Positions 9,591 through 28,112 of a stretch of DNA of 40,377 nt are shown here, in pieces (positions within the stretch are counted from its first letter, which is position 1; every line of letters starts with the position of its first letter). The notes under the pieces are model-generated. The model saw only the letters and a list, made by a program, of their open reading frames with translations, was not told the origin of the DNA and ran no database searches. The position numbers and the translations under genes are program-made. Source of the DNA: Alphaproteobacteria bacterium (GTDB lineage Bacteria > Pseudomonadota > Alphaproteobacteria > JAAEOK01); the NCBI GenBank assembly GCA_024244705.1, contig JAAEOK010000086.1:1-40377 (forward strand), written 5' to 3'.

Positions 9591-10493
9591 ATGATTAGCA
9601 ATCCCGTACCCTGGCCCGATGGGGCGCGATGCGCCTGTGCCATTACCTTCGATATCGACACGGACAGCATCCTCCATCTCGAACATGGCGACCGCGCGCC
9701 GACCATGTTGTCGACCATGTCCTGGCTGAAATACGACGAGGTCGCGATACCGCGTATCCTCGAGATGTATCGTCGATTCGAAATCAAGCAGACGTTTTTT
9801 TATCCGGCGTGGTGTATGGAGCGTTATCCGGCACTGGTCGATATGATCCTGAAGGATGGCCACGAGATCGCGGCACATGGTTATCTTCACGAAAATCCCA
9901 ATCAGCTCGAAGCCGAGGAGGAGCTTTACTGGTTCGAGCGCCAGATCGAGGTTATCCGCAAGATGACCGGCCAGAAGCCGCGCGGCTGGCGGGCGCCGCT
10001 GTATAATTTCTCGCAGTATTCGCTCGACTACATGATCGATCAGGGAATGATCTACGATGCGAGCCTGATGGGCGATGACGTCCCCTATGTCCTGCGGACC
10101 AAGGCCGGTCAATTGATCGAATTACCGAGCCATTGGGCGATGGACGACTGGCCGCACTTCACCCATTCGATCGACATGCATTACATGATGCCGATCAAGT
10201 CGCCCGACGAAGCGATGAATGTCTTCATGTCGGAATTCGAGGCCATGTACGAGTTCGGCGGGCTCTGGGTCACCGTATGGCATCCGTTCGTTTCCGGCCG
10301 GCTGGCGCGTTGCGCCAGGGTAGCCAAGATGATCGAAGAAATTCAAAATCGCGGCGGTGTGTGGTTCGCCACCTTGGAAGAGATCACGCGCCACGTCCAG
10401 AAATGCATCGACGATGGATCCTGGACGCCGCGCGTGGACAATCTGCCGTACTATGAGGGGCGCATCCCCGAATTGCCCGAGGCGGCCGAATAA
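9591..10493 (+). CDS. NodB/PuuE-family polysaccharide deacetylase-like hydrolase
   Basis: A 300-residue protein of the carbohydrate esterase 4 fold. Motif 1 is TFDIDTD (catalytic and metal Asp), motif 2 is HGYLHE (H-x3-H metal ligands) and motif 3 is RGWRAPLYN. There is no signal peptide, and the length and cytoplasmic nature resemble the PuuE allantoinase/cyclic-imide hydrolase branch, not cell-wall deacetylases. In this setting, next to Rid domains and creatinine genes, hydrolysis of a cyclic amide or imide such as a hydantoin is a reasonable inference, not a demonstrated function. Ribosome binding site GGGAGG lies before ATG 9591; the gap to the Rid gene is 42 nt, so the same operon is likely. 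It converges with ureD. Confidence 0.8.
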   Translation: MISNPVPWPDGARCACAITFDIDTDSILHLEHGDRAPTMLSTMSWLKYDEVAIPRILEMYRRFEIKQTFFYPAWCMERYPALVDMILKDGHEIAAHGYLHENPNQLEAEEELYWFERQIEVIRKMTGQKPRGWRAPLYNFSQYSLDYMIDQGMIYDASLMGDDVPYVLRTKAGQLIELPSHWAMDDWPHFTHSIDMHYMMPIKSPDEAMNVFMSEFEAMYEFGGLWVTVWHPFVSGRLARCARVAKMIEEIQNRGGVWFATLEEITRHVQKCIDDGSWTPRVDNLPYYEGRIPELPEAAE

Positions 10494-11405: not shown

Positions 11406-12021
11406 TTTTGGATAGATGCTCAACAACCGAGTCGATTCCGTCACCGCTCGCACAATTAACCAGAAGAACCGGCTTTCCGCTCCTGACCTCCGATGCTTCG
11501 CTTGCCATGCGCTCGAGGTCGGCGCCGACGTGCGGCGCCAAGTCGGTCTTGTTTATGATCAAGAGGTCGGAACGCACGATTCCCGGGCCTCGTTTCCGGG
11601 GGATATCGTCGCCTCCGGCAGTATCGATCACGAACAACCAGTAATCGACGAGGTCGAGCGAAAACGTCGAGGCCAGGTTGTCGCCGCCGCTTTCGATCAG
11701 AATGACGGACACATTCGGGAATGATTCGGACAAGCGGTCGGCAGCCTGGATGTTGAGCGTCGGGTCCTCGCGGATGGCCGTATGAGGACATGCGCCGGTC
11801 TCGACCGCGAGTACGCGATCCGGTCGGATAAGGCCGCTTCGTTGAAGCCGGATCGCATCCTCCGCGGTAACAAGGTCGTTGGTTACAACCGCGAGTTCGA
11901 GGCCGCGCGCCTCGAGTGCCGGGATCAGGCGCTCGATCAATGCCGTTTTGCCTGACCCGACGGGTCCGCCGATCCCGATTCGAGCAGGTGCTGGCAGCGG
12001 TATCTTGTCGGGAACGATCAT
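11386..12021 (-). CDS. ureG: Urease accessory GTPase UreG
   Basis: A 211-residue SIMIBI-class GTPase of the HypB/UreG family that couples GTP hydrolysis to nickel delivery. It has the P-loop [19 protein letters not shown], the metal-binding CPH motif in [23 protein letters not shown] and the guanine-specific NKTD. All key residues are present. The start is ATG 12021, which overlaps the ureC stop codon (ATGA); the in-frame upstream ATG at 12069 would lie inside ureC and adds no homologous sequence. The direct coupling of ureC to ureG leaves no room for ureE or ureF. Confidence 0.9.
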
Positions 12022-13064
12022 CGCAGCATGTACCGCTGGGCGAGTGGCAATTCCTGGGCCGGCTCGCAAGTCGCGATCTCGCCATCGACATAGACGTCGA
12101 AGGTCTGCGGATCGACCCGGATCTCGGGGCAGGCGCTGTTATGGAGCATATGCTGCTTACTCAGCTTCCGCGTGCCTTGGGTCGGCAATACCGTCTTGCG
12201 TAGACCGAGGCGATCACCGATGCCCGCTTCGATTGCCGCCGGGTTGACGAACGACGCGCTCAATGCCTGCTTGGCCTCGCCGAACGCACCCCATTGCGGT
12301 CGCATCAGCAACGGCTCACAGGTCATCAGCGAAGCCGCACTGTCGCCCATCGCTCCCCATACGATGAAGCCGCCCTTGACGACCAGCTCGGGCTTGATAC
12401 CGAAGAAACCTGGGCGCCACAGCACGACATCCGCCAATTTACCATCCTCGAGCGAGCCGATGTAATCGGCGATTCCGAACGTGCGCGCGGCGTTGATCGT
12501 ATATTTGGCGATGTAACGTTTGATGCGTTCGTTGTCGCCCCGCGCGGTCCCTTCCTCGTCGAGACGGCCGCGCTGCTCCTTCATCTTCGATGCGAGTTGC
12601 CAGGTGCGACAGATCACTTCGTTGATACGTCCCATGCCCTGGCTGTCCGATCCGAGCATGGCGATGGCACCGAGATCGTGGAGAACGTCTTCCGCCGCAA
12701 TCGTTTGCGCGCGTATCCGGCTTTCGGCGAAGGCAACGTCCTCGGGGATCGACGGATTCAAGTGGTGGCACACCATCGTCATATCGAGGTGCTCGTCGAA
12801 GGTGTTCACCGTGTAGGGATTGGTTGGATTGGTCGACGAGGGCAGGCAGTTTGTCTCACCGGCGACACGAATGATATCAGGCGCATGACCGCCGCCGGCG
12901 CCCTCAGTATGGTACATGTGGATGGTGCGGCCGTTGATGGCGGCCAGCGTGTCCTCGAGAAATCCGCTCTCATTCAATGTGTCAGTATGGAGCTGGACCT
13001 GGAAGTCGAGCTCGTCGGCGACGGCGAGACAGGTATCGATGACGGCGGGCATCGCCCCCCAATC
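12018..13064 (-). pseudogene. ureC: Truncated urease alpha subunit UreC (C-terminal two thirds)
   Basis: From about 13064 to the stop at 12018 the frame matches UreC from just after the carbamylated-lysine motif to the very end. It shows [33 protein letters not shown], the flap VCHHLNPS, the Asp ligand in LGSDSQ and the ending [10 protein letters not shown]. The first 200 or so residues are absent, with the HxH nickel ligands. The conserved GLK(L/I)HEDWG is replaced by TYNIRKDWG, so the carbamylated Lys and its neighbour His are gone. The frame stays open to 13181, but that extension is not UreC-like. ureA and ureB are not upstream; the creatinase gene follows instead. The product cannot be an active urease. 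The breakpoint lies near 13064. Confidence 0.85.
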
Positions 13065-13251
13065 CTTTCGAATATTATACGTGATCCGCAATAGCTTCAA
13101 TAGACCATTCAGCGATAAGCGCGAGACTGCGTCGCAAATCTTGCGGTCATCCGAATTGGTGACTTTTCGGGACGGACACACGCCAGCGGCAACGTTTGCC
13201 GCGGTGGTGGACTGCTCGCTTTCCGCCCTCGCAGTATTCAGTGAGGGGTAG

Positions 13252-14418
13252 CTAGATTTGGATCACGCCACGCTTGAAAGCCGTCAGCACTTCCGCGCCA
13301 TCGCCGGTCACGAGAAGCATGTCGGCATGGCGGAATCCGCCGGCGCCGACGACGGATATCATCGGCTCAATCGAAATCACCATGTCTTCCTCAAGCACGG
13401 TGTCGTTATATGGCCGCAGTTCGCCGATCTCGTCGCGACCGTACCATTGCCCCATGATTCCAAAGGAATGACCTGTGCCGAAGGTACGGTCACCGAGATA
13501 GCCCGCCTTCTCGAAAATCGGGTTTACGTGATCGTCGATCTCATTGCACCGGACACCGGGTCTGACGGCGGCGATTCCTGCTTCATGAGCCTCCGAACAC
13601 ACTTCGAACGGCTTCCTCACGTGGTCGGGCATTGTGCCGAAGAATAGGCTGCGCTCGAGCAGGTGGTAGTAGCCCGCGACCATAGGGAAGACGTTGAGAC
13701 TGACGATCTCATCGGCGGCCAGCTTTCGTGTCGTGTTCGGATTGTGCGCGACATAGGTGTGCTCGGTGCCAAACTGGCACCATGCGAATGTTCCATCTTG
13801 CTCGGCCTCGGGAAAGCGATCGGCGATTTCCCGCTCCATGACGGTGACCGCGGTACGGGCGACATCTATCTCGGAAACTCCCTCGGCGATGGCGGTCTCG
13901 AAAGCTTCCGCGCCGCGCGTGGCGATCTCCGCACCCTGCCGGATATGGACGATTTCCTCTTTCGATTTGACGATCTGCTTGCGCATGATCGGGCGGCTGA
14001 CGTCGACGAACTCGGACCCGACCATGACAGTCGCCAGCCCCTTGTACAGGCTGAATGGAATATAATATTCCTCGATACCGATCCTGCCGCGCTCAATTCC
14101 TCGATCCTTCAAAGTGTCGCCGATGTGCTTCAAGGCGCCGTCGAGCGGGCTTCGGGCATCCCAATAGATGCGGACGTCCTCGAACCACGACAGTTTTTTT
14201 GGACGGTCGAATTCAATTCGCGGTGCAATGACCGCCGGGTCGCCGCGCCGCGGAATGACGGCGAAGTGCCCGCGACCGAACGGCGTCATCCAGAAATTGC
14301 TGTAGTAGAGGACGTTATGAAAGGATGACGCGACGACGGCATCGAGGCCCATGAAATCCATCAGGTCTCGAATGTCGTCGAGCCGGCGGGTCATTTCCCG
14401 GTCGGAAAATCGGTGCAT
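13252..14418 (-). CDS. Creatinase-like amidinohydrolase (M24 fold)
   Basis: 388 residues of the pita-bread (M24) fold. It matches creatinase (creatine + water to sarcosine + urea) and not metal-dependent aminopeptidases. The catalytic His lies in VAHNPNTTR (His225, equivalent to His232 of the Pseudomonas enzyme). The segment [18 protein letters not shown] has Asn where peptidases have a metal Asp, and [18 protein letters not shown] and [19 protein letters not shown] follow creatinase closely. It is probably a cytoplasmic homodimer. It lies 113 nt downstream of the LysR gene on the same strand and next to the urease genes, which would use its urea. A proline dipeptidase-like activity is the alternative, but the neighbouring creatininases make creatinase much more likely. 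Confidence 0.85.
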
Positions 14419-14531
14419 CGTGCGCGCCCTCTGTGTGGCAATCGGTCAGATACGGCAACACAAGTTTGTCGAGCTATGCAATTGTTTATTCACGCGACGG
14501 GGCGGTCTCTTCGCCGCCCGCGGTTCACACC

Positions 14532-15452
14532 CTAGAGTTCTTCGTCGAGCGCGAGTTCACTCGCTGCGGCCCAAAAATCGTCGAGGAAGGTATTCATCAC
14601 CAGCGTGCGCGAGAATCCCTTTCGGGTCGCCAGAAAGTAAGGCGCGCTCCAATTCATGACTTGCGGTAGCAAGGATCTTAGATCGCCGGATCCAACCCAT
14701 ATGTCGCCGTAGTGCTTGGGCAGGAAGCCGATATAGGCCCCGGTTCGGATGAGCGAGGCCTTGGCGGCAACATCGGTAACCAGCGCGGAGGCGCTTTCGG
14801 CCATCACCCGCGCGAGTTCCGTTTGCATCCACATGCTGCGGGAGACGACCCGGTATTGGGTCAGATCCTGCACATTGATCTCACCCTGTTGGCGTTGAAA
14901 AAGTGGGTGCAGACGGCCGCAGTAGAGTTCTTGACGTTCGGAATAGATGTATTCGTAGTTGAGGCCGTTGATCTTGCGCGGAAAGCAGCCGATCACGAGG
15001 TGGAGTTGGCCGTCGAGCAGGAGCTTCTCCATGGCCTGGAGTTCTTCGACTTGAACCTGGATCTGGGTATCGTTTTCGCGCGCATTGAAGCGGCGAATGG
15101 CTTCATGAATTGGCGAGCGGCCGTTGCTGATAACCGAGTCGAGAAGGCCGAGATTGAGCGAACCCGTCAATTGCCCCCGAATGCTCGCCATGTCACCGCT
15201 GAAATCGTTCACCGCCGTGAACAGTCTTTTTGCCGCTTCGTAGACGAACTCGCCCTTGTCGGTGAGTTGGAAACCGACCCGCCCCCGTTGACACAGTTTG
15301 GTGCCCAATCGTCGCTCCAGTGTCGCCATATGATTGCTGATGGTCGAGGTGCCGATGTTGAGCTCAGTCTGCGCGGCGGCGAAACCACTATTATCGACCA
15401 CCGTCTTGAAGACCTTCAGGAGGCGTAGGTCGCTGTCGGAAAAATGGAACAT
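14532..15452 (-). CDS. LysR-type transcriptional regulator
   Basis: 306 residues. The N-terminal winged helix-turn-helix covers about residues 5-65 (LRLLKVFKTVVDNSGFAAAQ, then STISNHMATLERRLGTKLCQR), followed by a LysR substrate-binding domain. Start ATG 15452 was chosen because it gives the family's usual length and N-terminus (MFHFSDSDLRLL); the frame is open to 15872, but that part is the shadow of the divergent transporter gene and its promoter. It is divergent from the ABC importer/creatininase operon and upstream of creatinase, so it is the likely regulator of both, with a creatinine-pathway compound as inducer (inference). Confidence 0.9.
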   Translation of the reverse strand: MFHFSDSDLRLLKVFKTVVDNSGFAAAQTELNIGTSTISNHMATLERRLGTKLCQRGRVGFQLTDKGEFVYEAAKRLFTAVNDFSGDMASIRGQLTGSLNLGLLDSVISNGRSPIHEAIRRFNARENDTQIQVQVEELQAMEKLLLDGQLHLVIGCFPRKINGLNYEYIYSERQELYCGRLHPLFQRQQGEINVQDLTQYRVVSRSMWMQTELARVMAESASALVTDVAAKASLIRTGAYIGFLPKHYGDIWVGSGDLRSLLPQVMNWSAPYFLATRKGFSRTLVMNTFLDDFWAAASELALDEEL

Positions 15453-15713
15453 GTTGGTCCCCGAGGATCGAAGCAAGTACTGATTAGTATGATAACAGCG
15501 AACTATAAGGTTTCTTCGCTGAAATGACATATCCGCAGGGCGTTGATGGCCGTTCGTACCATTGAATGCGAGCACCAACCCGCGAGCGTTAACTTTGTTG
15601 AACTTCAATGTTATCTTCAATATGTCGACATTTTTAATGCTTCGGCACTGTGAAATGATGTCGATGCAGAATGAATCCGGGCCGAGAGGCTCGCAAAACA
15701 CAGGGAGGAAGGC
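15453..15713. promoter_or_regulatory. Divergent promoter region, LysR / ABC importer operon
   Basis: This 261-bp region separates the LysR gene from the ten-gene plus-strand operon. A LysR-type T-N11-A dyad, TTTCTTCGCTGAAA, lies at 15511-15524. A weak sigma70-like pair, TTGAAC at 15598 and TATGTC at 15621 with a 17-bp spacer, could drive the operon. The region is more AT-rich than its surroundings. The strong ribosome binding site GGGAGGAA precedes 15714. The specific sites are by eye and tentative. Confidence 0.4.
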
Positions 15714-16853
15714 ATGCAGCGGAATCCGTTTGGTCGTGGAAGAGCGACTCGCCGTCAGTTCGTGACCGGTACGACGGCTCTGGCCGGCTCCGTCGCCATC
15801 GGCGCCACATTTCCAAAATTGGCTCGGTCTCAATCCGAAAAGGTGGTGAGCTTGTTGAGCTGGCCCGGACATGGCGCCCAGGATGTGATTGGCCCCTTCG
15901 AGGCGGCGACCGGCATCAAGGTGCAGTCGAAGGAGTATACCGGCGGGGAGGAAATGATCGCGTTACTGCAATCCTCGCCTCCAGGCACGTTCGATGTCGT
16001 TTTGTCCGACGCCGAATATATCTATCAGCTGCAGCAAGCCGGCCTGATCGACGAGATGAACCCGGGCGATTACCCTATCGACGATTTCTGGCCGGAGTTT
16101 CAGAAATTTCCCTATCACTGGGTGGACGACAAGCTCTACTCGGTCATGGTCGACTACGGCTTCTTGGGCATGGTCTACAACACCGAGAAGCTGACTCGCG
16201 AGGAAGTCGATAGCTACTCGGTTCTGTGGGAGGAAAAAGTCAAAGGCAAGGTCGGTATGTACGATTGGTACCTGCCGAATATGATGTGCCTGAGCCTGTA
16301 CGACGGCAACCATCCGCCCAACGACGTCTCGCCGGCGCAGTTCGAAAAACTCAAGAAAACGTTGTTCTCGTTATCCGGCCAGATGTCCGGTATCGGCCCC
16401 TGGTCATCGGTGTTCTCGCAGCTGACCAATGAGGAATCATGGGTCATGCCTGGGGTTGGCGCGTGGGCGGCGCTGTTGCTCGAGAACGATGGCGTGCCGA
16501 TCAAAGCGATGGTGCCCAAGGAAGGCGGCCTGCAGTGGACGGAGTCGTTGTCCATCGCGTCATCCTCGGAAAACAAGGATCTCGGTGTCCAGCTCATCCA
16601 GTACCTGACGTCGCCCGAAGGCCAGGTATTGGAGGCGACCAAGTCGGCCTATTGGGCCTCGATCCCCAACAAGATGGGCTGGAAGAAGCTCAACGAGGAT
16701 ATGCCCGAGGCCGCCGTGCGGCTCGAGCATGAGCTCGACAAACGTAACGTCATGGATGAGTTCGCCGAAGGCAAGATCAGTATCCGAGGCGTGCCGGCGC
16801 AGCAATCGATCGAGGATTGGAACGAGGCCTGGACTGAGTTCAAGAACATGTAG
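15714..16853 (+). CDS. ABC importer substrate-binding protein, Pot/spermidine-putrescine type, Tat-exported
   Basis: 379 residues. The N-terminus has a twin-arginine signal (ATRRQFVTGTTALAG, cleavage probably after the ARSQ region), so it is exported folded to the periplasm. The mature part resembles PotD/PotF-family binding proteins: VVSLLSWPGHGAQD, FDVVLSDAEYIYQL, a central GFLGMVYNTEKL and a C-terminal NEAWTEFK. It is the first gene of an operon with two permeases, an ATPase and then creatininase overlapping the ATPase gene. The ligand is therefore more likely creatinine, creatine or a related guanidino compound than a polyamine; this is inferred from position only. Confidence 0.85.
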   Translation: MQRNPFGRGRATRRQFVTGTTALAGSVAIGATFPKLARSQSEKVVSLLSWPGHGAQDVIGPFEAATGIKVQSKEYTGGEEMIALLQSSPPGTFDVVLSDAEYIYQLQQAGLIDEMNPGDYPIDDFWPEFQKFPYHWVDDKLYSVMVDYGFLGMVYNTEKLTREEVDSYSVLWEEKVKGKVGMYDWYLPNMMCLSLYDGNHPPNDVSPAQFEKLKKTLFSLSGQMSGIGPWSSVFSQLTNEESWVMPGVGAWAALLLENDGVPIKAMVPKEGGLQWTESLSIASSSENKDLGVQLIQYLTSPEGQVLEATKSAYWASIPNKMGWKKLNEDMPEAAVRLEHELDKRNVMDEFAEGKISIRGVPAQQSIEDWNEAWTEFKNM

Positions 16854-16882
16854 CGTCCGGTTGGCTCCGATATCGGGCGGCG

Positions 16883-17794
16883 ATGGCTAGAACGCTCGGC
16901 GACGAGGCACCGACGAATTTGTTGGCGACGGCGGCTCCGACCAAGCCCCGCTGGGTCAATGGGTTTGCGTTGGCTCATGTTCTGCCGCTATTGGTGTGGC
17001 AGATCGCGTTCTTCGTCGCCGCCCTGGGCTTTCTCGTTGTGATGAGTTTCTGGGTGGTCACCAATTTTCGACTGACCCCCGATTTCACCTTTGCCAACTG
17101 GATCAAGATGTACTCGACCGGGTACTTCCAGGACACTTATGTCCGGACTTTCTTGATCGCGTCGCTGGCGTCGGCGGTGACTAGCTTGATCGCCTTTCCT
17201 TGCGCCTATGGGCTGGCGTTCAAGCTGCCGCCGGGCTTACGACGGCTGGCTGTCTTCAGCCTTATCACGCCCTATTTCACGAGCTATCTGGTGCGCGCCT
17301 ATTCGTGGAAGATCGTGCTCACGGAGACCGGCGTGCTCAATACGGCGCTGGGTTGGATCGGGCTCGGTCCATTCACGATGACCAACAACCTGTTCACCAC
17401 CATGGTCGGTTATCTGACCCTTTGCCTGCCGATCGTGATCCTGCTGCAATTTTTCAGTTTGGCGAATGTGGACCGCAGCTTGATCGAGGCCGCGCATAAC
17501 CTTCGCTGCGGTCGGTTCAAGACCGTGTTTCTGGTCATTATCCCAGCGGCCAAGGTCGGTATCATTCTGGCCGCGACCTTTACCTTCATATTGTCCTTCG
17601 GCGACTTCATAAGCCCCAGTTTCCTCGGCGGCAACAAGCCGCCGACGCTGAGCATTCTCATGGTCGACACCGTCCGGTCGGGTTCGCACTGGCCGCGCGC
17701 GTCGGTGGTCGCGTTGACCATGGTTGGCACTTTGATGGCGGTCGCATTCACCGCTCTGGCGTTCGCCTACGGCGCCGGAAAGCGCAAGACATGA
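16883..17794 (+). CDS. ABC transporter permease, PotB-type
   Basis: 303-residue inner-membrane permease with about six hydrophobic helices after a short cytoplasmic N-terminus (first helix around LPLLVWQIAFFVAALGF). The ATPase-docking EAA-type loop reads LIEAAHNLRCGRFKTVFLV. The start ATG 16883 lacks a strong ribosome binding site. Its end overlaps the next permease by 4 nt (ATGA). Together they form the heterodimeric channel of the importer. Confidence 0.9.
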   Translation: MARTLGDEAPTNLLATAAPTKPRWVNGFALAHVLPLLVWQIAFFVAALGFLVVMSFWVVTNFRLTPDFTFANWIKMYSTGYFQDTYVRTFLIASLASAVTSLIAFPCAYGLAFKLPPGLRRLAVFSLITPYFTSYLVRAYSWKIVLTETGVLNTALGWIGLGPFTMTNNLFTTMVGYLTLCLPIVILLQFFSLANVDRSLIEAAHNLRCGRFKTVFLVIIPAAKVGIILAATFTFILSFGDFISPSFLGGNKPPTLSILMVDTVRSGSHWPRASVVALTMVGTLMAVAFTALAFAYGAGKRKT

Positions 17795-18606
17795 ACGCCG
17801 ACCGGATCGTCACATGGCTGCTCCGGTCCTATGTCGTATTCGCGCTTGTGATCGTGTTCACGCCGATCATCACGAGCTTCGTGTTTTCGTTCGATGCGAA
17901 CCGTTATGCCACCATTCCGTGGGGCGGTTTCAGCACCAAATGGTATCAGGCCGCCTTCGCCGACCCGGAAGTCGCGAGCGGTTTCCGAAATACCGTCATC
18001 GTCGGCGTCTGCACGTCGATAATCGCGACGCTGATCGGGTTCGCCACCGCCTATACCGATTACCGCTATCGTTTCCTCGGCAAGAACGTCTATCTGGCGC
18101 TTGCGCTGCTGCCGCCGACGATCCCGGTGATCATTCTCGGCCTCGCGATGCTCGTGTTCATGTCGAGGACCGGACTATCGGGCTCGCTTCACTCGATAAT
18201 AATCAGCCACGTCGTTTATTGCATTCCCTTCGCCATGGCCCTCATTCGCTTGCGACTGGCGCAAATGGATCCGGACTTGGAAGCGGCGGCGTGGAATTTG
18301 GGCGCTGGTGAGTGGAGGACTTTGCGGGATATCGTTTTGCCGTTCACCCTTCCCGCGATCGCTTCCGCAATGTTTCTGACCATGGCCGTTTCCTTCGACG
18401 AGTTCGCCATAGCCTGGTTCGTTTCAGGCTTCAACGAAACCCTGCCGGTCCGTATCCTCGTTCTCCTGCAGCGCGAGGTCAGCCCCAAGGTCAATGCCAT
18501 CGGCAGCATCGTTTTTATAATCTCTATGACTTTGGTCATCGTAGCCCAGCTCCTGCTCATGGTCCGGCAGCCGAATAGCGGCGCGAAATGGGCCGAAGGC
18601 GGCTAG
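17791..18606 (+). CDS. ABC transporter permease, PotC-type
   Basis: 271-residue permease, about six transmembrane helices (first: YVVFALVIVFTPIITSFVFSF). The EAA-type loop is LEAAAWNLGAGEWRTLRDI, followed by LPFTLPAIASAMF, typical of PotC. It starts within the stop of the PotB-type gene (ATGA) and ends 11 nt before the ATPase start. Its partner permease, binding protein and ATPase are adjacent. Confidence 0.9.
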   Translation: MNADRIVTWLLRSYVVFALVIVFTPIITSFVFSFDANRYATIPWGGFSTKWYQAAFADPEVASGFRNTVIVGVCTSIIATLIGFATAYTDYRYRFLGKNVYLALALLPPTIPVIILGLAMLVFMSRTGLSGSLHSIIISHVVYCIPFAMALIRLRLAQMDPDLEAAAWNLGAGEWRTLRDIVLPFTLPAIASAMFLTMAVSFDEFAIAWFVSGFNETLPVRILVLLQREVSPKVNAIGSIVFIISMTLVIVAQLLLMVRQPNSGAKWAEGG

Positions 18607-18617
18607 GGGAAGGCGAG

Positions 18618-19724
18618 ATGTCGGAGCCTCTTCTCGTTCTCGATCGCGTCGCCAAGCGTTTCGGCAGCATCACCGCCGTACGCGAAGTGGATATTGAGAT
18701 TAGCGAAGGCGAGTTTGTCGCGATTATGGGCCCGAGCGGCTGCGGCAAGACGACCACGCTGCGCATGATCGCCGGTCTTGAGACGCCCAGCGATGGCGAG
18801 ATTCGACTTCGCGGGCGCCGAATGAACGAGGTCAAGCCATGGGACCGCGATACGCCCTTGGTCTGGCAGAGTCTGGCGCTGTTTCCGTTCATGAGCGTCG
18901 TGAAGAATGTCGAATTCGGTCTTAGGATGCGGGGAATCGGAAGTTCGGAGCGGCGGCAGCGGGCCTTGAATTGGCTTGAGCGGCTTGGCATCGGAAGCCA
19001 CCGCGACCGGAAAGTGGATCGTTTGTCCGGGGGCGAACGACAGCGCGTAGCGCTCGCGCGGGCCTTGGTCACCGAACCCGAGATTCTTCTTTTGGACGAG
19101 CCGTTGAGCGCGCTCGACGCGCACCTCGTGGTTCGCATGCAATCCGAGTTGAGCCAGCTCCAGGACCAACTCGGCATCACTTTTTGCTATGTCACGCACA
19201 ACCAGTCGGAGGCCTTCGCCATGGCCGACCGCGTCGTGATCATGAGCGACGGCCAGGTCCAGCAAGTGGGCTCACCGCGAGTAGTATATCGGGCCCCCGC
19301 CAACCGATTCGTCGCCGACTTCGTGGGCGCCAACAATGTCATCGCCGGGACGGTGCGTGGCCTGGAGGACGATCGGACAATGGTCGATACCGGATTTGGC
19401 ACACTGGCCGCACCCGCGTCCAAGGTTGGCACCCTGAAGGTCGGCGATACGGTCGACCTGGTTGTCAGTGCCGATCGCATTTCGTTGTCGACGACCGGCG
19501 GTGGCGACGAGAACCGTATACGCGGCACGCTCATCAGCGAGCAGTTCGTCGGTGCCGTAGTCACTCTTTATCTCGATACGGGCGGGGAGTCCGAATTCCG
19601 TGTTCAACTTCAGCAACACGAAGCCGACGCGCTTGAAATGTCGCGGGGCGTTTCGCTGATCGCCGGTTGGCGGGCCGAACACACCTATATCCTGCCGGGG
19701 GAACGCAAAGGAAATGTCCGATGA
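18618..19724 (+). CDS. ABC transporter ATP-binding protein, PotA-type
   Basis: 368 residues. Walker A is GPSGCGKTT, the Q-loop area reads LVWQSLALFPFM, the signature is LSGGERQRVALARAL, Walker B is ILLLDEPLSALD, the switch His is in YVTHNQSEAFA, and a C-terminal TOBE-like regulatory domain starts after about residue 235. All catalytic residues are present. Start ATG 18618 (MSEPLLVLDRV) follows GGGGAAGGCGAG. An earlier in-frame ATG at 18588 lies inside the permease gene. The stop overlaps the creatininase start (ATGA), which ties transport to creatinine breakdown. Confidence 0.92.
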   Translation: MSEPLLVLDRVAKRFGSITAVREVDIEISEGEFVAIMGPSGCGKTTTLRMIAGLETPSDGEIRLRGRRMNEVKPWDRDTPLVWQSLALFPFMSVVKNVEFGLRMRGIGSSERRQRALNWLERLGIGSHRDRKVDRLSGGERQRVALARALVTEPEILLLDEPLSALDAHLVVRMQSELSQLQDQLGITFCYVTHNQSEAFAMADRVVIMSDGQVQQVGSPRVVYRAPANRFVADFVGANNVIAGTVRGLEDDRTMVDTGFGTLAAPASKVGTLKVGDTVDLVVSADRISLSTTGGGDENRIRGTLISEQFVGAVVTLYLDTGGESEFRVQLQQHEADALEMSRGVSLIAGWRAEHTYILPGERKGNVR

Positions 19725-20503
19725 CCCATAACGAACGGATATCCGACCTGACGTGGATGGAATACGAGGAGCGGGTTCGCGGCGGCGACACGCCGGTGTT
19801 GTTGCCGGTCGGCGCGTTGGAACAGCATGGTCCGCACTTGCCCATGAATTGTGACACGCTGATCCCAACGGAGGCCTGCGCCCGTGTTGCTAAGAAGATC
19901 GGAGCCTTGGCGGCGCCGCCGTTGTGTTACGGCTATAAATCTCAGCCCAAGTCCGGTGGCGGCAATCACTTCCCGGGGACCACCAGCCTGGACGGCGCGA
20001 CGCTGACAATGATGACGCGGGACATCGTCCGGGAATTTGCCCGCCATGGGGTCCGCAAGGTTGCCATTGTTGTCGGCCATACCGAAAACCTGATGTTCAC
20101 GATCGAGGCCTGTGACCTGGCGTTGCGAGACCTGTACGCCCAGGGGCTCGACGATCTCAAAATCGTGCACATGGGCTATTGGGAGTTTCTCTCCGACGAA
20201 ACCCTGAAAAAGGTTTTCCCCGACGGCTTCCCAAGTTGGAACCTCGAGCATGCCGGGGTGATGGAGACGTCGACGATGCTCCACCTCTATCCGGAGCTGG
20301 TCGAATTCGACAAGGTTCCGCTTCATCCGCCGGCCGATTTTCCGCCCTACGACGTCTATCCAGTCGATCCCAGTAGGATTCCGTCCTCCGGCGCATTGTC
20401 TTCGGCGAAGGATGCGACCGCCGAAAAAGGAAAGCTCATGCTGGACGAGTACGTCGATTCGATCTCGTCTGCACTACGCGAGGAATTCAGGCTGGAGTCG
20501 TAG
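19721..20503 (+). CDS. crnA: Creatininase (creatinine amidohydrolase), copy 1
   Basis: 260 residues, collinear with Pseudomonas creatininase, which opens creatinine to creatine with a binuclear metal site. Numbering coincides: Glu34 and His36 (ALEQHGPH), Asp45 (MNCDTLIP), His120 and Glu122 (GHTEN). The diagnostic stretches YGYKSQPKSGGGNHFPGTTS and LDGATL are present. Trp154 (YWEF) and the flap Trp (SWNLEHAG, one position earlier) are kept, but the residue after His120 is Thr instead of the usual Tyr121. Start ATG 19721 overlaps the ATPase stop; an upstream frame to 19667 is inside the ATPase gene. Very probably a true creatininase, or an enzyme acting on a close analogue. Confidence 0.9.
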   Translation: MTHNERISDLTWMEYEERVRGGDTPVLLPVGALEQHGPHLPMNCDTLIPTEACARVAKKIGALAAPPLCYGYKSQPKSGGGNHFPGTTSLDGATLTMMTRDIVREFARHGVRKVAIVVGHTENLMFTIEACDLALRDLYAQGLDDLKIVHMGYWEFLSDETLKKVFPDGFPSWNLEHAGVMETSTMLHLYPELVEFDKVPLHPPADFPPYDVYPVDPSRIPSSGALSSAKDATAEKGKLMLDEYVDSISSALREEFRLES

Positions 20504-20536
20504 CGTCGAGGCTGCCTGCATCAAGGAGGAAGAATA

Positions 20537-21352
20537 ATGAGCCGACGCGTATTGATCGAGGAGATGACGTGGACCGATTACGATCAGCGAGTACGGGAGG
20601 AGAACCCGCTCGTCATATTGCCCGCCGGATCGCTCGAGCAGCACGGGCCTCACACACCGCTCGCAACCGACACGATTATTCCGAAGGCGATCTCCGCCGC
20701 CGTCGCAGAGCGAATTGGTGGCATGGTTGCGCCGGCGATTTCCTACGGCTACAAGTCACAGGACCGCACCGGCGGCGGAAACCACTTCGCTGGCACGACG
20801 AGCCTCGATGGCGAAACGCTGATCCGATTGACCCGCGACATCGTTAAGGAATTCTCCCGCCATGGCGTGCGTCGCATGGCAATTATGGATTCGCACTACG
20901 AGAACGAGATGTTCTTGATCGAGGGCATCGACCTCGCCCTTCGCGAGTTGCGCGCGGAAGGTGTCGACGACATGAAGATTATCAAGATCCGCTATTTCGA
21001 GTTCACCTCGGAAGAAACCTTGGACGAGGTTTTTCCTGACGGATTTCCCGGCTGGCCCCTCGAGCACGCGGGCGTGATGACAACGTCGGTGCTGCTCCAT
21101 TTGTGTCCGGAGCTCGTTCATATGGATCGGGTTCCCAACCATCCGCCGATCGAGTATCCGCCTTATGATGTTTTTCCCGCGGATCCGGAACGGGGTTCGC
21201 CCACCGGCGTGCTCGCTTCGGCACAAGGGGCGACGGCGGAGAAGGGCAAATTATTGTTCGACCGTTTCGTCGACGGCATTTCCGGTGCGCTCGCCGGCGA
21301 ATTTTCCCTCACCGACCGAGCCGGCCCACGGGACCAGAATGCGAGGCAATGA
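20537..21352 (+). CDS. Creatininase-family amidohydrolase, copy 2
   Basis: 271 residues and again collinear: Glu34, His36 (SLEQHGPH), Asp45 (LATDTIIP), His120, Tyr121, Glu122 (SHYEN), and YGYKSQDRTGGGNHFAGTTS. All metal ligands are present. Trp154, which stacks on the substrate in the Pseudomonas enzyme, is Phe (YFEF, codon 20996-20998), while the flap Trp remains (GWPLEHAG). It is clearly a diverged duplicate of the upstream gene, differing at active-site positions, so a second substrate (a substituted creatinine or hydantoin-like ring) is possible. AAGGAGGAAGAATA precedes ATG 20537. The gap to copy 1 is 33 nt. Confidence 0.85.
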   Translation: MSRRVLIEEMTWTDYDQRVREENPLVILPAGSLEQHGPHTPLATDTIIPKAISAAVAERIGGMVAPAISYGYKSQDRTGGGNHFAGTTSLDGETLIRLTRDIVKEFSRHGVRRMAIMDSHYENEMFLIEGIDLALRELRAEGVDDMKIIKIRYFEFTSEETLDEVFPDGFPGWPLEHAGVMTTSVLLHLCPELVHMDRVPNHPPIEYPPYDVFPADPERGSPTGVLASAQGATAEKGKLLFDRFVDGISGALAGEFSLTDRAGPRDQNARQ

Positions 21353-21376
21353 TCGCGTAGTTCGATGGAGGCGAAA

Positions 21377-21820
21377 ATGACGATGAACCGGTTCATGCAA
21401 GCTGCCTACGACGAGGCCACGGCAAGTTTCGATGAGGGCGGCGTCCCCGTCGGTTCGGTCCTGGTCCACGATGGCGAAATCGTGTCCGCCGGACGCAATC
21501 GTCAGGAACAGAAGGGCAGCAACCTCCTGCACGCCGAAAACGATGCATTGGAATCCGCCGGTCGCCGCGGCCGTCGTTTCTTTCGCAATTGTGAGCTCTA
21601 CACGACCCTGTCGCCGTGCCCGATGTGTGCGGGTGCGGTCCTGTTTTACGAAATTCCGAAGATGATAATCGGTGACGCGACCAATTATCCTGGCGAGGTC
21701 GAATGGCTGCGGTCACGTGGCGTCGATGTCGTCGTCGAGGACAGCGCCGAGTGCATCGCGCTGTTGCAGCGCTTCATGACCGAGAAATCGGACCTTTGGG
21801 CCAAGGTCACCGCGGATTGA
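21377..21820 (+). CDS. Cytidine/deoxycytidylate-family deaminase (cytosine/creatinine deaminase-like)
   Basis: 147 residues with the zinc site of the CDA superfamily: HAEN (His ligand and catalytic Glu) and SPCPMCAGAV (two Cys ligands). The fold, length and sequence (GGVPVGSVLVHDGEIVSAGRN, then FYEIPKMIIGDATNYPGE) resemble yeast-type cytosine deaminase. Some bacterial cytosine deaminases also deaminate creatinine to N-methylhydantoin, though those known belong partly to another fold, so the substrate is left open. GGAGG lies just before ATG 21377; ATG 21365 upstream would place the ribosome binding site inside the gene. It follows the second creatininase by 24 nt. Confidence 0.85.
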   Translation: MTMNRFMQAAYDEATASFDEGGVPVGSVLVHDGEIVSAGRNRQEQKGSNLLHAENDALESAGRRGRRFFRNCELYTTLSPCPMCAGAVLFYEIPKMIIGDATNYPGEVEWLRSRGVDVVVEDSAECIALLQRFMTEKSDLWAKVTAD

Positions 21821-21853
21821 CCGCGGCATCAAGGGAGCGGAGATGGTGGCAGA

Positions 21854-23236
21854 ATGAATAGGCATGACTTCAAGAAAGCTTTCAAATGCCTGGGGCCGGC
21901 CATTCTTCCGGTCATCCATGTCGCGACTGCGGAACAGGCATTGCGAAACATTCGGATCGCGTGCGGCGAGGGCGCTCAAGGCGTTTTCTTGATCAATCAC
22001 GATTTCGCCGAGACCGAAATGGTGCCAATTCTGCGGGACGTGCGGGAAAAGTTCCCGGCGCTCTGGCTCGGCGTGAATTTTCTCGGCGTCACCGGAAAGG
22101 ATGCGTTCCCCGTGCTCGGCGGTTTGCAGCGCGAGGGAGTCGTCGTCGACGCCTATTGGGCCGACAACGCGCGCATCGATGAGCGCCGAGACGATCAGGT
22201 TGAGGCGGATGAGATCGCCGGAACACGCGCCGATAGCGGCTGGACCGGTCTCTATTTCGGCGGCACCGCCTTCAAGAAACAGCGTCCGGTAGAGGCCGAA
22301 CAGCATGGTCGCGCAGCCGAGATCGCCACGGCCTATATGGATGTCGTCACAACTTCGGGTCCGGCGACGGGGGAGGAAGCCGAGTTGGCGAAAATCGCCG
22401 CATTTCGATCAGGGTGCGGCGATCAGGCACTGGCGATCGCGTCGGGGGTAACGCCCGACAACGTGATGGAATACGCCCCACATGTCGATGCCATCCTGAT
22501 CGCGACGGGGATCGATTTTCCGGGCGACTTCTACAATATCGATGGCGACCGGCTGCGTCGGGTAATTGCCGGTGCGCGCGCCGACGGCGACGCCGAACTG
22601 CTGACGACAGATCCCAACGGTGATCGCGGCGATCGTTGGTACCTTTATCGGATCGCGCCGAATGTACGGCCGGGCGTCATCACCTGGAATGACCCATCGA
22701 CCATGTACATCAACGCCCGGTCGTTCAATGCGATCTTGGACGATCTTGTCGCACCGTTCGATCGCGGCGAGTTCGATGTCGTGGCCGGTCCCGATGCCAT
22801 GGGCTTCGTCCTTGGCGCTGCGATTGCCGCGCGCTTCGGGAAAGGGTTTCTCACCATCCGCAAGGCCGGCAAGATGCCGGTCGACGTCGATGTTGCCGAA
22901 TTCTCGAATTACACCGGCCGCAGCGGAAGTATGGAGCTGCGCAAACCGGCGTTCCACCCGGGAACGCGTGTGTTGCTGGTCGATCAGTGGATCGAAACGG
23001 GTGGCACGATGGCCGCCGCCATCGACCTTGTTGAGCGGCAAGGCGGCATTGTCGCTGGCATCGCCACCGTCTGTTTGCAGGAAACACACGGCGCCCAGGC
23101 GCTGCGGGAAAAATACAAGTGCTCCACTCTTGTTCTTCCCGGGACCACATTGCAGGACCAGATCGACTCGGGGCGCCCCGATTTTTTCGACGACTTCGAC
23201 TGGGAATGCTACTTGCCCGATCGCAGTGAAACCTGA
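21854..23236 (+). CDS. Fusion: BtpA-like TIM barrel plus APRT-like phosphoribosyltransferase
   Basis: 460 residues in two parts. Residues about 1-265 look like a BtpA/SgcQ-type TIM barrel (LPVIHVATAEQALRNIRIA, GAQGVFLINHDF, WLGVNFLG, YMDVVTTSGPATG, ALAIASGVTPDNV, VDAILIATGID). Residues about 285-450 are a type I phosphoribosyltransferase closest to adenine phosphoribosyltransferase: GPDAMGFVLGAAIAARFG, FLTIRKAGKMP, and the PRPP-binding VLLVDQWIETGGTM, where the usual second Asp is Gln. A role in salvaging or activating a base-like product next to the deaminase is inferred. I know of no characterised example of this architecture. The frame is continuous with no sign of an artificial join. Its stop overlaps the next ATG. 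Confidence 0.75.
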   Translation: MNRHDFKKAFKCLGPAILPVIHVATAEQALRNIRIACGEGAQGVFLINHDFAETEMVPILRDVREKFPALWLGVNFLGVTGKDAFPVLGGLQREGVVVDAYWADNARIDERRDDQVEADEIAGTRADSGWTGLYFGGTAFKKQRPVEAEQHGRAAEIATAYMDVVTTSGPATGEEAELAKIAAFRSGCGDQALAIASGVTPDNVMEYAPHVDAILIATGIDFPGDFYNIDGDRLRRVIAGARADGDAELLTTDPNGDRGDRWYLYRIAPNVRPGVITWNDPSTMYINARSFNAILDDLVAPFDRGEFDVVAGPDAMGFVLGAAIAARFGKGFLTIRKAGKMPVDVDVAEFSNYTGRSGSMELRKPAFHPGTRVLLVDQWIETGGTMAAAIDLVERQGGIVAGIATVCLQETHGAQALREKYKCSTLVLPGTTLQDQIDSGRPDFFDDFDWECYLPDRSET

Positions 23237-23418
23237 TGCGCCCACTCCCGGTAATTGTGCTGTCGCCGGTGAGGGGAAATCCAGCCGACTATGTCGATGA
23301 CGAGATGGCATTTCGCGCCTATTTCTGTCCCGGCTGTGCGACGCAAATTGAGACCGAGATCATCCTGTCGGAATTGCCGCCGATATGGGACATTCAGATC
23401 GACTGGAGCGATCGATGA
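23236..23418 (+). CDS. Half-length acetone carboxylase gamma-like / hydantoinase-associated small protein
   Basis: 60 residues. The C-terminal part, FRAYFCPGCATQIETEI then PPIWDIQID, resembles the end of the small Zn-ribbon gamma subunits that accompany acetone/acetophenone carboxylases and ATP-dependent N-methylhydantoinases (HyuA/HyuB relatives). Those proteins are usually 110-160 residues with a first Cys pair that is missing here. The ATG at 23236 overlaps the TGA of the fusion gene, and a stop at 23227 excludes a longer frame, so the short form is genuine. No HyuA or HyuB is in the window. N-methylhydantoinase is a step in the alternative creatinine route, which makes the location suggestive. 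Confidence 0.55.
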   Translation: MRPLPVIVLSPVRGNPADYVDDEMAFRAYFCPGCATQIETEIILSELPPIWDIQIDWSDR

Positions 23419-23469
23419 CGGCGGCGCCCTGAGCCGATTGCCGTTATCGACGACGAGGAGCGATGAAAG

Positions 23470-24858
23470 ATGACAGCACGATTGAATTCAGCAAGCGCCA
23501 AAGACATCGCCTATTCGATACATCCTTACGTCAATCTCAAGGTTCACCAGGACGAAGGTCCCTTGATCATCGAACGGGGCGAGGGAATCTACGTCTACGA
23601 CGATGCGGGTAACCGCTATATCGAGGGCGTTGCCAGTCTGTGGTACGCCTCGCTTGGCTTTAGCGAGCAACGACTGGTTGAGGCCGCTTACGATCAAATG
23701 AAGAAGCTGCCCTGCTATCATAGCTTCGGCCACAAGGCGACAAGTCCGGGAATTGAATTGGCCGAACGTCTGGTCGAGATGGCGCCGCCACAGTTGACCA
23801 AGGCGTTCTTCGCGAATTCCGGTTCGGAAGCGAACGATACCGCCGTCAAGGTCATCCGCTACTACAACAACGCTCTCGATCGACCCCGAAAAAAGAAGAT
23901 CATCAGTCGCTTCAAGGCCTATCACGGATCCACGGTCGCCGCCGCCAGTGTTACCGGAGTGCCTCGGAATCATTGGGATTTCGACCTTCCGATCGAGGGC
24001 ATTCTCCATACCGATTGCCCCGACCATTACAGATTCGCCGAACCCGGCGAGAGCGAGGAGGATTTCTCGAAGCGGCTTGCCCAGAATCTCGAGGACCTTA
24101 TCCTTCGCGAAGATCCGGAGACTGTTGCGGCCTTTTTCGCAGAGCCGGTCATGGGCGCCGGCGGCGTTCTAATTCCGCCGCGCAATTATTTCGACGAAAT
24201 TCAAGCGGTGTTACGCAAATACGATATCCTTCTTGTCGCCGATGAGGTGATTTGCGGCTTCGGCCGACTGGGCACGATGTTCGGCAGCGAATCTTTCGGC
24301 ATGAAGCCGGACATGATGACACTCGCCAAGGCGTTGTCGGGCGGCTATCAGCCGATTTCCGCCCTCTTGGTATCCGACCCGATCTACGCCGCGTTGGTTA
24401 TGGAGAGCGAGAAACTCGGCGGTTTCGGTCACGGCTTCACCTACTCGGCCCACCCGGTGCCGGCCGCGGTCGCGGTCGAGACCCTGAAAATCTACGAGGA
24501 GCGAGATATTCTCACCCATATTCGCCGGGTCACACCGCGTTTCGTCGACGGTCTAAACAAGTTCGCCAGCCACCCCCTTGTCGGTAAGGTGCGCGTGATG
24601 GGACTCCTTGGTGGCGTTGAAATCGTCGCCGACAAGGAAACCAAGCAGCCTTTCGATCCTGCGTTCGCGGTGGCACAGAAAATCGAAAAATTATGTCTCA
24701 AGCACGGACTCATCACGCGTCCGCTTGGCGATGTGGTGTCGTTTTCGCCGCCGCTGATTATCGACGAGGCCCAGATCGATGACATGATGGAAAGATTCGG
24801 CCGGGCGCTCGACGAATTGGCCGCTGATTTGGCAGAGGCGCGCACCATCGCCGGATGA
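23470..24858 (+). CDS. Class III (omega) aminotransferase, PLP-dependent
   Basis: 462 residues of aminotransferase class III: FFANSGSEANDTAVK, AYHGSTVAAAS, the PLP Asp in VADEVICGFGRLG, and the Schiff-base Lys in LAKALSGGYQPISA. The family moves amino groups from omega-amino acids or amines to pyruvate or 2-oxoglutarate. In this cluster it could act on a beta-amino acid from a pyrimidine-like ring or on a released amine; the substrate is not evident. Start ATG 23470 follows GAGGAGCG. It is the last gene of the operon and is followed by an 18-bp palindrome. Confidence 0.9.
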   Translation: MTARLNSASAKDIAYSIHPYVNLKVHQDEGPLIIERGEGIYVYDDAGNRYIEGVASLWYASLGFSEQRLVEAAYDQMKKLPCYHSFGHKATSPGIELAERLVEMAPPQLTKAFFANSGSEANDTAVKVIRYYNNALDRPRKKKIISRFKAYHGSTVAAASVTGVPRNHWDFDLPIEGILHTDCPDHYRFAEPGESEEDFSKRLAQNLEDLILREDPETVAAFFAEPVMGAGGVLIPPRNYFDEIQAVLRKYDILLVADEVICGFGRLGTMFGSESFGMKPDMMTLAKALSGGYQPISALLVSDPIYAALVMESEKLGGFGHGFTYSAHPVPAAVAVETLKIYEERDILTHIRRVTPRFVDGLNKFASHPLVGKVRVMGLLGGVEIVADKETKQPFDPAFAVAQKIEKLCLKHGLITRPLGDVVSFSPPLIIDEAQIDDMMERFGRALDELAADLAEARTIAG

Positions 24859-25778: not shown

Positions 25779-26546
25779 CTACGCCGCGGTGTTCGGTTCC
25801 AGGCCGTCCTCGACGCCAGCCAGCTCCATGCACCGGGGCCAGTCCGCAATGGCAATCTGATGGGGATCGTCGAATTTGATGATTCCGTTCCCGCGCAGCC
25901 GCGTAATGCAACGGCTGACTGTTTCCGTCGTCAAACCCAAATGGTCGGCGATATCGCTGCGGCTCATCGGCAGTTCCACCGTGTTCGGTGATTGGCTTTT
26001 GAGATAGGCGCGCCGGGACAACAGGTACAGAAACGTCAAGATTTTTTCCTCGGCCGATTTGCGGCCGAGGAGCAGCATCTGATCTTGTGCCGAGGCCAGC
26101 TCGTTCGATGCTATTCCGAGAAGCCGTTTTTCGAGATGCGGGAGTTCCTGGAGCAACGCTTCAAGCCGCCCTCGGTCGAAACGGCATAGCCGTGACGGCG
26201 AAACCGTCTCGGCCGTGTAGGCGTAAAGGTCCTGGTGGGCGAGGCCGAGGAAGTCGGAGGGGAATAGAAAGCCTGTGATTTGCCGCCGGCCATCGGCCAA
26301 CAGCTTATACAACCTGACGCAGCCCTCGACGATGACGAAAAGATGCGCCGCGGGATCCGACTCGTAGAACACGACCTGACCCGTGCCGACGGTCGTGTGC
26401 GTCACGATTGCATTAAGGCGGTCGAGCTCAGATCCCTGAAGCGCGCCACAGACGCTGAGTTCCCGCACACCGCATGCCGCGCAAGGATTATCCGGTTGCG
26501 TATTCACCCTTGCGGGCTTCAGTGGATCGGCCGAGTTAGGTTTCAC
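25779..26546 (-). CDS. fnr: FNR-type oxygen-responsive transcriptional regulator (Crp/Fnr family)
   Basis: 255 residues. The N-terminal cluster CAACGVRELSVC (C-x2-C-x7-C), with a further Cys in the effector domain, matches [4Fe-4S] FNR-type sensors (FnrL, Anr, AadR). A cyclic-nucleotide-like fold follows (VVFYESDPAAHLFVIVEGCVRL), and the helix-turn-helix contains SRSDIADHLGLTTETVSRCITRL with the E-x2-S-R recognition helix, as expected for binding TTGAT-type sites. It would activate low-oxygen genes. Three matching boxes lie near it in this window, one in its own divergent promoter region. ATG 26546 gives the usual length. Confidence 0.9.
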   Translation of the reverse strand: MKPNSADPLKPARVNTQPDNPCAACGVRELSVCGALQGSELDRLNAIVTHTTVGTGQVVFYESDPAAHLFVIVEGCVRLYKLLADGRRQITGFLFPSDFLGLAHQDLYAYTAETVSPSRLCRFDRGRLEALLQELPHLEKRLLGIASNELASAQDQMLLLGRKSAEEKILTFLYLLSRRAYLKSQSPNTVELPMSRSDIADHLGLTTETVSRCITRLRGNGIIKFDDPHQIAIADWPRCMELAGVEDGLEPNTAA

Positions 26547-26601
26547 TCGATATCTCCTGGGCGGGACTTATCGAATCTTCGTCATTGTAGGGTCTTTGGG
26601 A

Positions 26602-26618
26602 TCGCTTTGAAAGCGATG
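26602..26618. promoter_or_regulatory. Perfect 17-bp palindrome between fnr and the GNAT-like gene
   Basis: ATCGCTTT-G-AAAGCGAT, two perfect 8-bp arms around one base. It lies 56 nt upstream of the fnr start and 7 nt from the FNR box, in the right place for a second regulator of fnr. The arms could also form a hairpin, but there is no U-run. Confidence 0.45.
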
Positions 26619-26625
26619 ACGCTGT

Positions 26626-26639
26626 TGACCTATATCAAA
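26626..26639 (+). promoter_or_regulatory. FNR-type box in the fnr / GNAT-like divergent region
   Basis: TTGACCTATATCAA, differing from the FNR consensus only at position 5. The centre is about 70 nt before ATG 26703 and 86 nt before the fnr start, so it can serve the plus-strand GNAT-like/Usp pair and also allow autoregulation of fnr. Confidence 0.7.
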
Positions 26640-26702
26640 GCAAGGCAAGGCGGCGGGTTTCACTATGCCTGACGAGCGCTGCGACGCGGCAGATCTTACG
26701 GG

Positions 26703-27242
26703 ATGCGTAGAATGTTATGTGGATATCGGGCCCGCCACCTGACCGCTACCGACATTTGCCGGGCCTATCCGCTGATCCAAGCGGCGTTTGCCGACCTTTC
26801 TCTCGAAGATTGGACTCGGTTTGCGCGGATCCAGATCGAGGACGTCCGCCTGCCTCGCGTGAATTCGGGAATTGTCGCGGTCGAGAATGAAAGCGGTTAT
26901 TTGCACGGCCTGTTTTCGTTCAAGATCGTCGATGACGGTTTGGTCGGCCGCGTCCTGAATTGCGACCATTTTGTCGTGCTCGAGTTGCTACCGATCGGTG
27001 AACCGCTGGCGAAACTTGTCTCCGCCGCCAATCGATTGGGACGCGACAACAATTGCGTTCAGGTCCATATTTGCATTCCGACACGGGTGTCCTTTCACGA
27101 TGAAGCAAGCTCGCCGATGATCAAGCTGCTCAATGATGCCGGTTTCGACCGCGAATCAGTGCGTTTTCGCGGTACCGACGACCGCGGCGGCGACCAATTG
27201 AAGGACAAGTTCAATCTATTCGATCTGGAGGGGCCTCAATGA
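26703..27242 (+). CDS. GNAT-like hypothetical protein
   Basis: 179 residues. The layout (YRARHLTATDICRAYPLIQAAF, then SLEDWTRFA, then a beta-rich middle and NDAGFDRESVRF at the end) resembles the GNAT acetyltransferase fold, but I do not see a convincing acetyl-CoA motif (R/Q-x2-G-x-G/A), so the assignment is tentative. It overlaps the universal stress protein gene by 4 nt and lies behind an FNR box, so it belongs to the low-oxygen response. Start ATG 26703 has a weak ribosome binding site; ATG 26712 is an alternative. Confidence 0.65.
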   Translation: MRRMLCGYRARHLTATDICRAYPLIQAAFADLSLEDWTRFARIQIEDVRLPRVNSGIVAVENESGYLHGLFSFKIVDDGLVGRVLNCDHFVVLELLPIGEPLAKLVSAANRLGRDNNCVQVHICIPTRVSFHDEASSPMIKLLNDAGFDRESVRFRGTDDRGGDQLKDKFNLFDLEGPQ

Positions 27243-28078: not shown

Positions 28079-28112
28079 CGCCTGTCGTCTCGGTCGATAA
28101 CCGCGAGCGCAA

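Follow-up and report, generated by a model that had tools for sequence, protein, structure and literature searches.

A LysR-linked importer and creatininase locus of an alphaproteobacterium that may break down a relative of creatinine

We analyzed a putative creatinine-type locus at positions 13,252 to 24,858 of a 40,377-nucleotide stretch of DNA (the window), which is contig 86 (JAAEOK010000086.1) of a 127-contig, 4.5 Mb alphaproteobacterial genome (GCA_024244705.1). Genes for a creatinase-like M24 protein and a LysR-type regulator lie divergent from a Pot-type importer, two creatininase-family proteins (Crn1 and Crn2), a zinc deaminase, a fusion of a BtpA-family barrel with a phosphoribosyltransferase (PRT) domain, a small Zn-ribbon protein, and an aminotransferase (Table 1). 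All are long open frames with clear family matches, located where a preliminary description of the sequence had placed them; every frame is intact, the starts overlap, and catalytic residues are retained. That description had the LysR gene on the correct, divergent strand, but its 446-amino-acid frame is too long, and the likely gene begins about 260 bp before the binding-protein gene. The overlap of the ATPase and creatininase genes was confirmed as 4 nucleotides (ATGA), with the crn1 ATG at position 19721 running into the ATPase stop codon. What had been called a half-length Zn-ribbon protein is a 60-amino-acid partial match to Acetone_carb_G, aligned with the C-terminal region of that acetone carboxylase gamma family. 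The NodB-type hydrolase gene and a urease remnant upstream had been overlooked.

Table 1. Features of the locus and its upstream flank, with the matches that identify them.
Feature	Position	Strand	Basis
Creatinase-like M24 protein, metal-free type, divergent	13252..14418	-	Pseudomonas putida creatinase 1CHM match, E 6e-71
LysR-type regulator, divergent from importer	14532..15452	-	Pfam HTH_1 and LysR_substrate; start by coding score
Pot-type solute-binding protein	15714 (or 15762)..16853	+	Pfam SBP_bac_8
ABC permease 1	16883..17794	+	Open frame; 48-61% to permease 1 of related loci
ABC permease 2	17791..18606	+	Open frame; 53-62% to permease 2 of related loci
ABC ATPase (ABC_tran and TOBE_2)	18618 (or 18588)..19724	+	Pfam; NCBIfam PotA/PhnT-type matches
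Creatininase-family protein 1 (crn1)	19721..20503	+	TIGR04448, 361 bits; 59% to P. putida creatininase
Creatininase-family protein 2 (crn2)	20537..21352	+	TIGR04448, 350 bits; 50% to P. putida creatininase
Fcy1-like zinc deaminase, altered pocket	21365..21820	+	Yeast cytosine deaminase match, E 5e-33
BtpA-family TIM barrel and adenine-PRT-like domain fusion	21854..23236	+	Family matches; AlphaFold models; fold matches
Acetone_carb_G-like Zn-ribbon protein, 60 aa	23236..23418	+	Pfam PF08882, E 9e-6, profile positions 72-104 of 113
Class III aminotransferase (PRK06105 type)	23470..24858	+	725 bits versus cut-off of 517; best PDB match 6g4b
NodB/PuuE-type hydrolase, outside the range first described	9591..10493	+	Polysacc_deac_1; closest PDB match 3rxz, E 1e-55
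Truncated urease alpha subunit	12018..13091	-	Profile positions 215-567 of 568 covered

The gene order is far from chance, since comparable importer-creatininase blocks recur in other genomes; the preliminary description had held that a lack of conservation would count against it. Blocks of LysR, importer, creatininase, and M24 genes, reached through relatives of Crn2, lie on plasmids of Microvirga VF16, Paracoccus aminovorans, three Mesorhizobium strains, and Shinella, and the binding protein led to a creatinine-type block of Leisingera. Azoarcus KH32C has the importer downstream of M24, creatininase, and permease genes, with no LysR gene listed in the stretch, which brings the cultured strains carrying such blocks on plasmids to eight. 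Some creatinine-type loci additionally contain sarcosine oxidase or glyA/purU. The loci of Microvirga VF16, P. aminovorans, Mesorhizobium, Shinella, and Leisingera share with the window a LysR gene, a four-gene importer of the same family, creatininase and M24 creatinase family members, and the layout, but they have only one creatininase, which belongs to the P. putida clade, and their creatinase is canonical. Their importers form a separate clade from the window's, and no BtpA-PRT was seen in the stretches examined.

This shared architecture is what would be expected of an ordinary creatinine locus, in which creatinine is imported, creatininase and creatinase convert it to sarcosine and urea, and the deaminase provides a parallel route through N-methylhydantoin. 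The part of the Corynebacterium glutamicum ATCC 14067 report drawn on here describes both routes, the creatininase route and creatinine deamination with hydantoinase, side by side (PMC8864220). That strain differs from the window in its transporters, CrnT and CreT, and its regulator, AmtR, and the same part of the report describes no BtpA-PRT; it also notes that creatine is used by Roseobacter denitrificans, which has no CreT homolog (PMC8864220). Two soxB-type genes in the source genome offer a possible route from sarcosine.

Both creatininase-family proteins pass the NCBIfam equivalog cut-off of 235 bits for TIGR04448. Consistent with an ordinary creatinine locus, both keep the metal ligands (E34, H36, D45, H120, E122, and H178) and, with E177, the catalytic His/Glu positions. 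Relative to the P. putida enzyme, Crn1 is changed at Y121T and D175N, and Crn2 is changed at S78T, G119S, W154F, and D175P. The P. putida creatininase and the creatinase-linked copies form one 14-row clade (support, 100/99). Both window copies fall outside it and group with proteins from two other loci, L159 and L161 (92/93), where no creatinase lies within the stretches examined. Forcing Crn1 or Crn2 into the P. putida clade gave borderline p values of 0.041 and 0.052 in approximately unbiased (AU) tests, and their exclusion from it is therefore likely rather than certain.

Two further creatininase loci were recorded. Besides an importer and a creatininase that are close to those of the window, L159 (G195:C114, 1856-15490) encodes two CodA-like deaminases, an amidase-like protein, and two further proteins that resemble amidohydrolases, identified by eye except for the seed matches; this gene set suggests aminated-ring breakdown. 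The source genome encodes a third creatininase (L039, G000:C45:8000-27000, at 7684-10356), about 46% identical to the window copies. It is divergent from a LysR gene whose product is 38% identical to the window LysR, and an isochorismatase and a BMP-type, nucleoside-like importer follow.

The M24 protein has P. putida creatinase as its best phmmer match, at 41% identity, compared with 57-64% for the other creatinases that neighbor the cassette described below. It keeps 9 of the 11 creatinase positions read, among them F62, R64, H232, Y258, E262, H324, R335, and E358, and retention of the catalytic and contact residues H232, E262, E358, F62, R64, and R335 again speaks for ordinary creatine cleavage. 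The two changed positions, E375H and H376A, are conserved in all 31 other creatinases. Phylogenetic analysis separated the window protein and its only clade partner, the M24 protein of L205, from these 31 (100/100), which include the P. putida enzyme and a second, canonical-looking creatinase of the source genome (G000:C64). The L205 gene itself adjoins HyuA/HyuB. We rejected an aminopeptidase or ectoine hydrolase assignment (243 bits to creatinase versus about 50 to DoeA), and a peptidase role also fails on the metal-ligand Asp positions of M24 peptidases, which are not kept.

The nearest relatives of the binding protein are from Ancylobacter and Bradyrhizobium (about 56% identity). In a tree whose root is not known and in which several rows are long-branched, it falls outside a 39-row clade (100/100) that mixes proteins linked to creatininase-creatinase pairs with proteins linked to BtpA; the proteins of L102, L157, and L158 fall inside the BtpA-linked part. 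The same importer clade occurs on Ancylobacter pratisalsi pLGM, where isochorismatase, HyuA, HyuB, nucleoside deaminase, importer, and creatininase genes stand in a row. As in the window, deaminase and creatininase share one block, the creatininase directly follows the ATPase, and urease accessory genes are nearby. Unlike the window, pLGM adds the isochorismatase and the HyuA/HyuB hydantoinase, its deaminase is only distantly related, and the stretch examined holds no BtpA-PRT or M24 gene.

The acidic polyamine contacts of PotD are D168, E171, and D257. D168 and E171 have no counterpart in the window protein, and D257 corresponds to Glu in this low-identity alignment. Residues D83, E85, G229, and E257 are almost invariant in both the creatininase-creatinase-linked and the BtpA-linked binding proteins, and the window retains the D83/E85/E257 signature. 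Because the PotD acids are missing and these residues are nearly invariant across both groups, we read this as a single ligand class, other than polyamines, that creatinine- and cytosine-associated importers probably share. Polyamine uptake, which the preliminary description had said would count against its proposal, is unlikely given the missing acids and the gene company.

The closest solved relative of the deaminase is yeast cytosine deaminase, in which N51, G63, F114, W152, and D155 contact the ligand (PMC11000218). The window protein has intact HxE and PCxxC motifs (H62, E64, C91, and C94) and keeps N51 and W152, but its pocket is altered by G63A, F114Y, and D155V. We relied on these alignment columns in place of the deaminase tree, which joins two long branches. 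All 31 deaminases of the related cassette retain the five yeast contact positions. Tandem deaminase paralogs that lack the HxE and PCxxC zinc motifs, possibly inactive partners, stand beside an intact Fcy1-like deaminase in L046 (2171), L067 (9149), L081 (5881), L113 (1144), and L119 (3312).

The preliminary description had also noted a PRT fusion, which proved to be a ribulose-phosphate-type barrel of the BtpA family joined to an adenine-PRT-like domain. The AlphaFold model of the fusion is confident, with a mean predicted local distance difference test score (pLDDT) of 88.7. Adenine PRTs are the matches of its C-terminal half, and a search with the full chain also brought up Leishmania UMP synthase, likewise a PRT/barrel fusion. 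Modeled alone (pLDDT, 91.8; predicted template modeling score, 0.90), the barrel resembles hexulose-phosphate synthase, KDPGal aldolase, PdxJ, phosphoribosyl-anthranilate isomerase (TrpF), tryptophan synthase alpha, and orotidine monophosphate (OMP) decarboxylase, with Z scores of about 17-20. TrpF and OMP decarboxylase act on phosphoribosyl products after their PRTs, and the predicted likeness to phosphate-binding barrels fits a BtpA barrel that may act on the product of its PRT in the same way.

A first genome search with the full fusion returned mostly ordinary adenine PRTs. Scanning genome contigs for BtpA with a five-row alignment gave 218 relatives, and the best 80 of these, with three more, made up a census of 83 loci, two of which (L037 and L095) apparently lie on the same contig. 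Because the gene caller had been trained on genes of the window and overlooks some in loci of low GC content, the counts were taken from tblastn; as many contigs stop close by, they are minimum values. At least 81 of the loci have a PRT, 76 a binding protein, 70 and 68 the two permeases, 64 an ATPase, and 49 a LysR gene. NodB-type hydrolases were found beside this kind of importer in 42 loci, Fcy1-like deaminases in 30, and phosphoribosyl pyrophosphate (PRPP) synthetase in 17, followed by creatinase (11), CodA-type proteins (11), DUF1989 (10), uracil PRT (UPRT; 9), GTP cyclohydrolase II (GCHII; 8), DUF1688 (5), and creatininase (1). Natural BtpA-PRT fusions occur in 19 of 80 loci, and in six gammaproteobacterial loci creatinase directly follows the fusion. 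Among the 61 loci with both a binding protein and an ATPase, the ATPase gene is followed immediately by a NodB-type gene in 37 and by CodA in 8, and CodA never occurs together with the Fcy1-like deaminase (Fisher p, 0.0009, which is only a guide because related genomes are not independent). The loci are proteobacterial, from roseobacters, Hyphomicrobiales, and gammaproteobacteria; more distant BtpA relatives on plasmids of Bosea, Variovorax, Delftia, and Pseudomonas had uninformative contexts. Beside the cassette of L083, a gene at 11452-12603 (-) gave a weak arginine-deiminase-family match and is perhaps an amidinotransferase.

Together with this type of importer, the deaminase, BtpA-PRT, and NodB-type hydrolase make up a conserved cassette. 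The window, with BtpA and PRT beside a Pot-type importer, belongs to it and shares its Fcy1-like deaminase and NodB-type hydrolase. It differs in having creatininases after the ATPase, where the cassette usually has NodB or CodA, in its deaminase contact residues, and in its importer clade. The cassette is the more unusual part of the locus compared with the creatinine-type genes. A literature search found no description of it, nor anything directly useful on BtpA with a PRT, the URC pathway, or creatininase residues. We tentatively suggest, as a fairly unlikely reading, that the cassette handles creatinine- or cytosine-like bases by a PRPP-dependent route not yet described, in which the PRT joins the base to PRPP and the barrel acts on the phosphoribosyl product; the window would then be a version with a shifted substrate, coupled to two ring-opening proteins of the creatininase family.

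The cassette also bears on a pyrimidine route, in which the deaminase would make a uracil-like base, the PRT would salvage it, and the creatininase-family proteins would act on a pyrimidine product. Cassette deaminases carry the cytosine deaminase contact set, and CodA-type proteins stand in for them in other loci. URC-type genes (UPRT, GCHII, and DUF1688) adjoin the cassette in 5-9 loci, with the cassette deaminase in 8/8 testable UPRT and GCHII loci, and a GCHII-DUF1688-UPRT set is also present at C50 of the source genome. However, the contact positions are altered in the window's own deaminase, its importer sits on a separate branch from the cassette importers, and creatininases are not known as pyrimidine enzymes. 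We regard this route as improbable for the window.

Upstream, a protein with three RidA/YjgF domains (8307-9548, +) directly precedes the NodB-type hydrolase and has no counterpart that we found in the 83 related loci. The urease remnant (10512-13091) lies between the NodB-type and M24 genes; its alpha subunit lacks the first 214 profile positions, roughly the first third, and UreG (with a P-loop) and UreD follow at 10512-12069 (-). In the incomplete assembly we found no other urease alpha subunit and no urea carboxylase match above the cut-off, and we rejected a working urease coupled to the locus since the alpha subunit is truncated. Farther upstream, positions 4919-8284 (+) encode a partial diiron (toluene/phenol hydroxylase-like) monooxygenase system with a Rieske protein, a beta subunit interrupted by an in-frame stop near 6771, and a ferredoxin reductase. 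Downstream, positions 25779-38842 encode a CRP/FNR-like regulator, a universal stress protein, the cbb3 oxidase FixNOQP, FixG, and a heavy-metal P-type ATPase.

The truncated urease subunit and interrupted hydroxylase gene, in a genome of 127 contigs, might indicate a decaying or chimeric island, with the changes due to relaxed selection in a rearranged region or faulty assembly and not to a new substrate. Against this stand the intact, overlapping genes of the locus with their catalytic residues, and the concentration of changes at contact positions; we think such an origin very doubtful. The lack of an evident urea-using enzyme in the available contigs also tells against the ordinary creatinine locus, as do the canonical-looking creatinase elsewhere in the genome, the clades into which Crn2, the M24 protein, and the deaminase fall, and their altered contact residues. 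We therefore consider an ordinary creatinine locus fairly unlikely. The original proposal of a creatinine/creatine locus stands for the architecture, which matches creatinine loci of cultured bacteria, and not for the enzymes as close counterparts of the verified ones.

The reading to which we give about an even chance is an altered-substrate relative of the creatinine locus: an island under LysR control that imports and degrades a small ring compound of the creatinine/cytosine class, either a cyclic amidine or an aminated ring. The locus is real and creatinine-type, and its enzymes look shifted in specificity. A related nitrogen-rich ring, a relative of creatinine, is the more likely substrate because several enzymes are changed at positions that contact the substrate or fall outside the verified families, and creatinine itself is possible. 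Several observations weigh on the other side. Crn1, at 59% identity, is well inside the range of enzymes sharing a substrate, most contact positions are unchanged, and the AU tests were borderline. The Y121 and D175 changes are weak evidence because, among creatininases linked to true creatinases, D175 is variable and Y121 is often Phe. The window M24 protein and its L205 partner, the deaminase, and the binding protein are all on long branches.

For the altered-substrate island, we infer the substrate, the order of reactions, and the control by LysR as follows. The Pot-type importer would take up the ring compound, the two creatininase-family metal hydrolases would open the ring or a cyclic product, and the deaminase would remove an exocyclic amine. 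The M24 protein would split the linear guanidino or ureido acid, and the BtpA-PRT fusion may first join the base to PRPP and then process the resulting phosphoribosyl compound. The aminotransferase, placed in the pathway by its gene position, would possibly process the carbon skeleton. The preliminary description had suggested that the later genes may serve a side route or a related ring compound; the latter fits best, and their membership of a conserved cassette argues against a loose side route.

Creatinine and related cyclic amidines are nitrogen sources, and a testable candidate for their uptake by marine bacteria is the family of Pot-type importers whose genes accompany those for creatininase, creatinase, and cytosine deaminase. 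For such loci, the TIGR04448 "creatininase" label and the "spermidine/putrescine" annotation of binding proteins can mislead. The analysis also points to a conserved, uncharacterized BtpA-PRT module, presumably nucleotide-making, beside similar importers in many marine bacteria.

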